The notes beneath the pieces are model-generated. The model saw only the letters and a program-made list of their open reading frames with translations. It was not told where the DNA came from and did not search any database. Made by a program: the position numbers and the translations under genes. A DNA stretch of 33,319 nucleotides from the IMG/VR virus record IMGVR_UViG_3300046467_001092, positions 1 to 33,319 of that record. The stretch is one strand, 5' to 3'. Shown here piece after piece: positions 29,404 to 33,225 of the stretch. Each line of letters opens with the position of its first letter. Position 1 is the first letter of the stretch. Source of the stretch: a virus.

Positions 29404-29730
29404 ATGTTCGATTTACTCTTCTCAACAACCGGCATACACACCGTACCGGCACCGCTCGATGCTCTGACCGAAGAGCTTGCCACTCTGCAAGCCAGCCTCA
29501 ATGCTGGCGGTGACGAGCAGGACGCGGCAAGACTCTGCTTCGACCACAACCTAGTCGAGGTCGCAACCCGCGCTCTTCGGCACGTCAACGACGGTATCAG
29601 TGACGAGCTTTTTCGCACCTCTTGGTACTGGCGTGGAGAGAATGGCGAAATCAGCGCGGAGGAAGCCCTTCAAGGCGAAGTCATCTATAACCGGGCCATA
29701 ACCCGCCACGTCACCGACCCGCTCCAATAA
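29404..29730 (+). CDS. Hypothetical early phage protein
   Basis: This 108-residue protein starts MFDLLFSTTGIHTVPAPLDA, is mostly helical and acidic, and has LATLQASLNAGGDEQDAARL and EVIYNRAITRHVTD stretches. No family is recognised. AAGGA lies before the start. It is the first gene of the rightward operon, and its stop codon is directly followed by the hammerhead ribozyme, so its mRNA probably ends there after self-cleavage. Confidence 0.72.
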   Translation: MFDLLFSTTGIHTVPAPLDALTEELATLQASLNAGGDEQDAARLCFDHNLVEVATRALRHVNDGISDELFRTSWYWRGENGEISAEEALQGEVIYNRAITRHVTDPLQ

Positions 29731-29787
29731 TCCTACTGATGAGATCCACGGGGGTGGATCGAAACGCCGAGAGGTCGGCGTCTGGGA
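29731..29787 (+). ncRNA. Type I hammerhead ribozyme
   Basis: All core bases are present. CTGATGA is at 29736-29742; stem II GATCCAC / GTGGATC (7 bp, GGGG loop) at 29743-29760; GAA at 29761-29763; stem III from A29764 to T29781 (7 bp, GAGG loop); cleavage base C29782; stem I TCCTA (29731-29735) pairs with TGGGA (29783-29787) with one G-T pair. Stem I is open to the flanks, so it is type I. Cleavage is expected between 29782 and 29783. A 3-bp extension (AAT 29726-29728 with ATT 29793-29795) across an internal loop could help folding. It begins at the base after the stop codon of the upstream gene and lies in the leader of the ArdC-like gene. Confidence 0.92.
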
Positions 29788-29817
29788 ACCCAATTAACCA
29801 AGGACCATTGGATCATC

Positions 29818-30663
29818 ATGAAAAAAGACGTAAAACAAATAGTTACGGACCAAATCATCGAGCTGATTGAAGAGCACGGTGCGAACTGGACCCAGCCTTT
29901 CGCGAGCCTATGCGGCACACCACGTAATGCCCTCACCGGCAATAAGTACCGTGGACTCAACGCCTTCTGGCTTGGGCTTAAAGGGTTCTCCTTTGTGGGA
30001 ACCTACAAACAGTGGCAGGAGCTGGGCGCTCAGGTTCGCAAGGGCGAAAAGGGCACTTCCATCACCGTTCCTTTGCCGATCAAGAACAAGGAAACGGGTG
30101 AGCAAAAGGGTCTCTTCTTCAGGGCCGCGACCGTGTTCGATTCATCGCAGGTCGATGGCTGGGCGGCGCCGGTAGTGGAGACCGTGGACACAACGACGAA
30201 GCTCGCGCTAGTCGATGAGTACATTGCCAACACTGGGGCTGACATCCGTCATCACCCCGTGGGCGGTGCGTTCTACCGCATTAGCGAGGACTTCATTAAC
30301 CTGCCGTTCCGCCACCAGTTCAGTGCCACTGAGACCAGCAGCGCAACCGAGACCTACTACAGCACAAAGCTCCATGAGCTGACGCACTGGACAGGTCATA
30401 AGTCGCGCTGTGATCGCCTTGATCTCAAGAACCGCAAGGGCTACGCCTTCGAAGAGCTGGTTGCTGAGATTGGCGCAAGCATCCTGTGCGTTGAACTCGG
30501 GGTATCCCCCGTAGTGCGTGAGGATCACGCGCAGTACATCGCGAGCTGGCTGCAATCGCTGGGCAATGACAAGTCCTACGTCTTCGACGCCGCGAGTGCG
30601 GCTCAAAAGGCGGTGGACTTCCTCGATGGAACCCAAGCGCAAGAAGAGAGGAGGGTAGCATAG
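29818..30663 (+). CDS. ardC: ArdC-type antirestriction protein with zinc metalloprotease motif
   Basis: This 281-residue protein has the N-terminal ssDNA-binding ArdC domain (NWTQPFASLCGTPRNALTGN, YRGLNAFWL, KQWQELGAQVRKGEKGT, FRAATVFDSSQVDGW) and a C-terminal zinc-metallopeptidase domain with HELTH (186-190) and FEELVAEIGASIL after it, the likely third ligand. ArdC proteins protect incoming DNA from host restriction. The early position fits that role. AAGGA at 29800-29804 lies in the loop of a small hairpin CCAAT / ATTGG (29790-29811), so translation may be affected by the folding of the leader that remains after ribozyme cleavage. Confidence 0.93.
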   Translation: MKKDVKQIVTDQIIELIEEHGANWTQPFASLCGTPRNALTGNKYRGLNAFWLGLKGFSFVGTYKQWQELGAQVRKGEKGTSITVPLPIKNKETGEQKGLFFRAATVFDSSQVDGWAAPVVETVDTTTKLALVDEYIANTGADIRHHPVGGAFYRISEDFINLPFRHQFSATETSSATETYYSTKLHELTHWTGHKSRCDRLDLKNRKGYAFEELVAEIGASILCVELGVSPVVREDHAQYIASWLQSLGNDKSYVFDAASAAQKAVDFLDGTQAQEERRVA

Positions 30664-30735
30664 GGATTAGATCCCCGTGCCTGTTCACCAGAGCAGGCAT
30701 CTGGATGCAATCCCGCATCAACAAACAGGAAACAC
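30661..30735 (+). ncRNA. Structured intergenic element, copy 1
   Basis: This element follows the ardC stop. Hairpin 1 at 30677-30700 (GTGCCTGTTC / GAGCAGGCAT, 10 bp, ACCA loop); hairpin 2 at 30704-30719 (GATGC / GCATC, loop AATCCC); then AACAGGAAACA with the ribosome site. GGGATT at 30663-30668 can pair with either ATCCC at 30671-30675 or the loop of hairpin 2, which may give a pseudoknot or a switch. It has no U-run and so is not a plain terminator. Confidence 0.8.
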
Positions 30736-31070: not shown

Positions 31071-31140
31071 TAGGGATTAGATCCCCGTGCCCGTTCGAGA
31101 GAGCGGGTATCTGGATGCAATCCCGCGTCGACAAACAGGA
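31071..31140 (+). ncRNA. Structured intergenic element, copy 2
   Basis: Hairpin 1 at 31087-31110 (GTGCCCGTTC / GAGCGGGTAT, GAGA loop) and hairpin 2 at 31114-31129 (GATGC / GCGTC, loop AATCCC), with the same 5' GGGATT and 3' ACAAACAGGA as copy 1. A T-A pair of copy 1 is C-G here, and other changes keep pairing through G-T. The next gene starts 32 bases further on, with its own ribosome site. Confidence 0.8.
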
Positions 31141-31445: not shown

Positions 31446-31617
31446 CGCCCTCCATGTGCTGACGGTGATCGCGGGAGTCGTATTGCTGCTGGGTCTTCTC
31501 GGACTCACTGGCAATATGGACTATCGCGATGCAGTGCTGGCCGAGGAGCGTTACACGACGATGGTTTGCGACGGTCATTGGCCTGACTACCAACATCTAT
31601 CGCCCCAATGTGAATAG
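31423..31617 (+). CDS. Small membrane protein of unknown function
   Basis: This 64-residue protein starts MTHHQEASALHVLTVIAGVV, with one membrane span (about 10-28, HVLTVIAGVVLLLGLLGLTG), then MDYRDAVLAEERYTTMVCDG. The MDY(x)AxxxExxYxxMV motif is seen in small proteins of phages and plasmids. It overlaps the preceding gene and ends exactly where copy 3 of the structured element begins. Confidence 0.72.
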   Translation: MTHHQEASALHVLTVIAGVVLLLGLLGLTGNMDYRDAVLAEERYTTMVCDGHWPDYQHLSPQCE

Positions 31618-31680
31618 ATCTCAGCCTCATGCCCACGTGGATGGGCATTTGGGTGCGATTTTGCATCGACTAACAGGAAA
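31618..31680 (+). ncRNA. Structured intergenic element, copy 3
   Basis: This is the second sub-type of the element. Hairpin 1 at 31629-31648 (ATGCCCA / TGGGCAT, CGTGGA loop); hairpin 2 at 31652-31667 (GGTGC / GCATC, loop GATTTT); then GACTAACAGGAAACA and the start codon. 53 bases are identical to copy 4. It begins the base after the TAG stop of the upstream gene. Confidence 0.8.
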
Positions 31681-32029: not shown

Positions 32030-32046
32030 CGAGGAATAGACCTAAG

Positions 32047-32103
32047 ATCCCAGCCTCATGCCCACGTGGATGGGCATTTGGGTGCGATTTTGCATCGACT
32101 AAC
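32047..32103 (+). ncRNA. Structured intergenic element, copy 4
   Basis: Hairpin 1 at 32058-32077 and hairpin 2 at 32081-32096. Sequence 32051-32103 is identical to 31622-31674, while the bases before and after differ, so the unit limits are clear. It precedes the ATPase gene, whose AAGGA lies just after the element. Confidence 0.8.
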
Positions 32104-33160: not shown

Positions 33161-33225
33161 GGGAGGGATCTATCCCCGTGCCTGTTTTTGCGAACAGGCA
33201 TCTGGATGCACCCCGCATCACAATC
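33161..33225 (+). ncRNA. Structured intergenic element, copy 5
   Basis: Hairpin 1 at 33178-33201 (GTGCCTGTTT / GAACAGGCAT, TTGC loop) and hairpin 2 at 33205-33219 (GATGC / GCATC, loop ACCCC). It keeps the copy 1 pattern with compensatory change near the loop (T-G of copy 1 becomes T-A). It follows the ATPase stop and precedes the last partial gene. Confidence 0.8.

Follow-up and report, generated by a model that had tools for sequence, protein, structure and literature searches.

The window and its plus-strand operon

The window analysed here is the whole stretch of DNA, a virus record 33,319 bases long. It has Mu-like features, with a gpT-like capsid gene and a Mu-gpT-DE RNA (RF03012; 20132-20195, minus strand; 51.4 bits), and its terminase genes lie on the minus strand. 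An operon on the plus strand runs in the order ORF1, hammerhead, ardC-like gene, small genes and AAA ATPase. ORF1 scores best for coding in its own frame among all six, and homologues of it were sought with none found. The ardC-like product was recognized by its ArdcN and zincin metallopeptidase domains (PF08401, E 2.3e-23; PF18818, E 1.2e-38) and by phrog_7245, an anti-restriction protein (E 3.8e-72). No terminator-like site turned up in a plus-strand scan of the interval from ORF1 to ardC, and we infer that the two genes lie on a common transcript. When the DNA of the locus was compared with annotated phages, no similarity was found. The features at this locus are as follows.

29404-29730, plus strand: ORF1, unknown protein of 108 amino acids
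29728-29730, plus strand: TAA stop codon of ORF1, flush with hammerhead stem I
29731-29787, plus strand: type I hammerhead ribozyme of 57 bases (stem I, core, stem II, stem III), from sequence reading, fold, pattern and covariance models
29731-29735 (UCCUA) with 29783-29787 (UGGGA): stem I, 5 bp with one G-U
29736-29742, plus strand: core CUGAUGA
29743-29749 with 29754-29760: stem II, 7 bp
29750-29753, plus strand: loop II, GGGG, possible pseudoknot partner of the 3' tail
29761-29763, plus strand: core GAA
29764-29770 with 29775-29781: stem III, 7 bp, loop GAGG
29780-29782, plus strand: GUC of the hammerhead
29782/29783, plus strand: predicted cleavage site GUC^U, from sequence and analogy with the hammerhead family
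29783-29817, plus strand: ardC leader after predicted cleavage, 35 nt
29788-29791, plus strand: 3' tail ACCC, partner of loop II by complementarity
29818-30663, plus strand: ardC-like antirestriction gene, with its ATG at 29818

Passages of PMC10085705 describe the ribozyme association as strongest for Mu-like phage genes, and such neighbourhoods as having been used to seek new ribozymes. Our window resembles the ribozyme-associated Mu-like phages of earlier work cited there by virtue of its capsid gene, which is like Mu gpT, and its Mu-gpT-DE RNA. Unlike our analysis, that work was discovery by neighbourhood, and the present locus is not named in those passages.

Complete type I hammerhead abutting a stop codon

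Positions 29731-29787 hold the type I core (CUGANGA...GAAA...UH at a three-way junction), with all core bases present and 19 of 19 pairs intact by sequence reading. The predicted minimum free energy structure is exactly the hammerhead three-way junction (-26.2 kcal/mol, z -2.25), and it has type I topology, stems II and III being closed by loops and stem I open. A pattern with the core spacing matched once in the 33,319-base window and never in 100 shuffles. An earlier note on this DNA had proposed a complete type I hammerhead with these boundaries, and sequence, fold and pattern bear it out. Its predicted cut between 29782 and 29783 agrees with our reading of the sequence, as do its 35-base leader to the ardC ATG and its placement of the ribozyme between the first gene and ardC, stem I starting on the base after the TAA.

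The same note had called for a check by hammerhead covariance model. Our own model, trained on 31 other phage hammerheads with the window left out, returned 29731-29787 as its single match in the 33 kb window (49.7 bits, E 3.9e-12). The Rfam scores fell short: Hammerhead_1 (RF00163) gave 22.4 bits (E 0.004 on 351 bases), under its gathering score of 34, and RAGATH-1-hammerhead (RF03152) gave 24.4 bits. The window copy shares the hammerhead core with RF03152 and aligned over the whole of that model, but its stem II has 7 bp where the model consensus has one pair, and the upstream hairpin of the model matches poorly. Membership of RAGATH-1-hammerhead was rejected, since 24.4 bits lies far under the gathering score of 56.3. 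At the gathering threshold, Rfam found no match in 14 relative loci either, most of which have one to six hammerheads by our own descriptor or model; the gathering threshold is thus insensitive for phage hammerheads.

Stop-codon register of hammerheads in relatives

Counting paired cells in an alignment would be circular here, because the sequences were picked by a helix-requiring descriptor. The fair test is stem I, which our search pattern did not demand, as it was restricted to the core plus three pairs in stem III. We applied this pattern to viral contigs (at least 120 stretches) and to bacterial and archaeal genomes (57 stretches). Stem I (at least 4 bp) was formed in 119 of the 125 viral matches listed, compared with 12.8 when partners were shuffled, and in 42/59 bacterial and archaeal genome matches, compared with 5.2. 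The helix is therefore supported by the relatives in both samples.

The position of these hammerheads relative to genes was evaluated with open frames of 70 codons or more, which are mechanical gene calls and not curated annotation. Among the matches listed were 154 non-redundant viral type I hammerheads, and 114 of them had a stop codon ending at -12 to +4 of the core, where random sites gave about 8, and the antisense strand showed no such pile-up. In 32 of these 154 the UGA of the core is itself the stop codon. Gene starts concentrate 20-45 nt past the cleavage site in the same set, and SD-like sequences stand at 88/127 of the downstream starts among the matches listed (random rate 0.17). 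The stop-codon geometry was replicated in bacterial and archaeal genomes (28/45). Type II forms followed it in 5/7 cases and type III forms in 0/7, both being small samples. In the terminase relatives L268, L276, L296 and L299, the hammerheads likewise lie on the strand opposite to terminase and directly past stop codons. Taken together, these counts show the stop-flush, gene-separating geometry to be the rule for phage type I hammerheads. Of the 98 downstream genes scanned among the matches listed, most are without named function; those with a name include RNA polymerase, exonuclease, anti-restriction, GemA, AcrIC5 and SAM lyase genes. Type I hammerheads were also observed in two contigs labelled Thaumarchaeota (L203, L248).

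Hundreds of bacterial hammerheads were reported by Perreault et al. 2011 (PMC3088659), among them sets that flank single prophage genes including ardA, and the ardA-flanking copies cleave in E. coli. Our locus resembles these prophage type I hammerheads, including the triple set at Agrobacterium tumefaciens ardA, in having the same ribozyme in an intergenic phage position with an antirestriction neighbour, and differs from the A. tumefaciens set in that the neighbour is ardC. The same study proposed cutting by these ribozymes as a way of turning long phage transcripts into gene-length mRNAs, so the idea of a message separator for phage hammerheads is already in the literature. Of the suggestion in the earlier note that the hammerhead is a notable operon separator, the geometry holds, but the placement is typical of phage hammerheads and not exceptional. 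A text search of the main text of PMC3088659 gave no mention of stop codons, and no mention of the stop-codon register was found in the literature searched, which mostly lay outside subscription papers; we do not claim it as unreported.

Pseudoknots have been described in bacterial hammerheads (PMC3088659), and the window copy may form a comparable tertiary contact, with three G-C pairs predicted to be possible between loop II GGGG and the 3' tail ACCC. Complementarity of at least 4 bp between loop II and the 3' tail occurs in 28 of the 154 hammerheads among the matches listed, compared with 7.8 after shuffling (maximum 15). We also observed that copies within one phage tend to have a stem I sequence in common (38/95 pairs, among the matches listed, compared with 3.8 shuffled), while stems II and III differ (L157, L090, L134, L153, L182, L200 and others). 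Such sharing could reflect products that pair or ligate in trans, or common descent of the copies.

An unrelated structured RNA in the slot before ardC

Our own model found hammerheads in 18 of 80 ArdC loci (30 matches; the 80 include some near-duplicates). All were on the ardC strand, some shortly before ardC and some shortly after. The nearest sibling of the window, L003, encodes an ArdC that is 96% identical and has no hammerhead in the slot before ardC, from which it follows that the hammerhead is not essential in this phage group. Homology between the window and L003 starts again at 29795, which lies 12 nt beyond the cleavage site. The slot in L003 is filled by an unrelated structured RNA, here called element E, which likewise precedes ardC in a third phage, L262. 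In both, the DNA upstream of the slot differs from that of the window. Upstream of element E in L003, a region of about 400 nt (2500-2920) is without a long plus-strand open frame. Seven copies of element E were found, five of them in the window operon, where they are intergenic and come after stop codons.

30663-30719, plus strand: element E1, structured RNA past the ardC stop, sharing the last base of that stop
31073-31129, plus strand: element E2
31616-31667, plus strand: element E3, diverged copy (35.5 bits, E 2.2e-7)
32044-32096, plus strand: element E4, diverged copy (27 bits, E 8e-5)
33165-33219, plus strand: element E5
L003 2921-2975 and L262 8964-9018: sibling copies before ardC

Element E folds as a three-helix rod that contains two 2x2 internal loops and has a conserved GCAUC tail. 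When the seven copies are compared, compensatory changes are seen in helices P1 and P3. In 7/7 copies the 3' strand of the rod (GAUGC/GGUGC) can pair with the tail (GCAUC/GCGUC) as an alternative to helix P2; this GAUGC-GCAUC pairing is a possible switch or pseudoknot. A known Rfam family was rejected as the identity of element E, with no Rfam match at E <= 10 for the window copies or at E <= 5 over L003 2450-3010. Further copies were sought in ArdC loci and in other hammerhead-bearing loci and none was credible, which suggests that element E is restricted to this phage group. One candidate, L260, was a chance match within a coding gene.

Element E may perform the job of the hammerhead, either as an unknown ribozyme or as a processing site for a nuclease. 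The stronger claim, that it is a self-cleaving ribozyme not yet described and that it and the hammerhead are interchangeable occupants of one intergenic slot, seems to us improbable. RNase III processing hairpins between the early genes of T7 are a familiar case of structured RNA that separates messages and is cut by a host protein. This likeness concerns element E, for which it offers a rival reading, and not the hammerhead.

Proposed separation of the ORF1 and ardC messages

Our preferred reading, to which we give a probability of about 0.78, is that the hammerhead severs the transcript of the early operon between ORF1 and ardC and so separates the two messages. The early operon would be transcribed as a single RNA. 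A ribosome at the ORF1 stop would cover stem I, and folding of the ribozyme would thus probably wait for termination; it would probably be aided by pairing of loop II GGG with the CCC just past stem I. Cleavage at GUC^U would then leave an ORF1 message whose stop codon is kept and whose 3' end is the stem III hairpin, carrying a 2',3'-cyclic phosphate, and an ardC message that begins with a 5'-hydroxyl leader bearing its own ribosome-binding site. The outcome would be separate mRNAs with separate lifetimes, obtained without a terminator or a second promoter. Catalysis by the window copy, its timing relative to ribosomes and its effect on mRNA lifetimes are what we infer; observed here are the structure, position and orientation of the ribozyme, the independent backing for its helix from relatives and the repeated occurrence of the geometry.

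It is possible, though on balance doubtful, that the ribozyme works while its stop-flush placement has no mechanistic meaning and simply reflects a tight genome that squeezes both flanks to the minimum, with nothing following the stop and a ribosome-binding site ahead of the start. The flanks of the hammerheads listed are indeed near the minimum, both for stops (-12 to +4 of the core) and for starts, and element E shows a similar but looser stop and start geometry. Compaction alone sits less easily with the 45 of 154 stops, among the matches listed, that occupy exactly the three bases immediately upstream of the core or coincide with its UGA. Nor does it fit well with how rare the permuted type III form is when the same stem III is demanded: 6 matches were found, 3 of them with a credible stem I hairpin, compared with at least 120 in the type I list. 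Compaction is nonetheless compatible with both facts.

We consider it rather unlikely that the hammerhead is a passenger, brought in when a cassette of a moron gene plus hammerhead displaced element E upstream of ardC, so that any effect on ardC would be incidental. The presence of element E in the slot of L003 and L262, with different DNA upstream, and the return of L003 homology only 12 nt past the cleavage site are what such an exchange would leave. Arrival in a cassette is nonetheless compatible with function, and hammerheads recur beside ardC elsewhere, always in sense orientation.

Cleavage might instead unmask the ribosome-binding site of ardC and regulate translation, given that the ribozyme sits directly in the ardC leader. 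We rejected this as very unlikely on the near-constant predicted accessibility of the start region, which moves from 0.375 to 0.394 on cleavage in the window and from a mean of 0.578 to 0.623 in 127 cases among the matches listed. Since it hardly changes, cleavage would not be needed to unmask the ardC start; and because cutting is not predicted to expose the leader, separate mRNA fates are likelier than translational switching. Finally, a decayed or chance hammerhead-like sequence, for which a score under Rfam gathering might speak, is scarcely credible with the core and all 19 pairs intact, an E of 3.9e-12 against an independent model and shuffles that lack the pattern.

Implications for phage hammerheads

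What phage hammerheads do biologically is still described as an open question (PMC6155905). We regard the exchange of the hammerhead with element E as the part worth following. The same ardC, its leader almost unchanged, follows a hammerhead in one phage and a structured RNA of unrelated kind in the sibling, which makes the purpose of the slot testable. If element E were a ribozyme, the stop-to-start slot of this phage group would accept any RNA cleaver. The stop-codon rule is in addition a quantitative signature, and it could help to find such ribozymes, as well as candidate new classes, in other phages.
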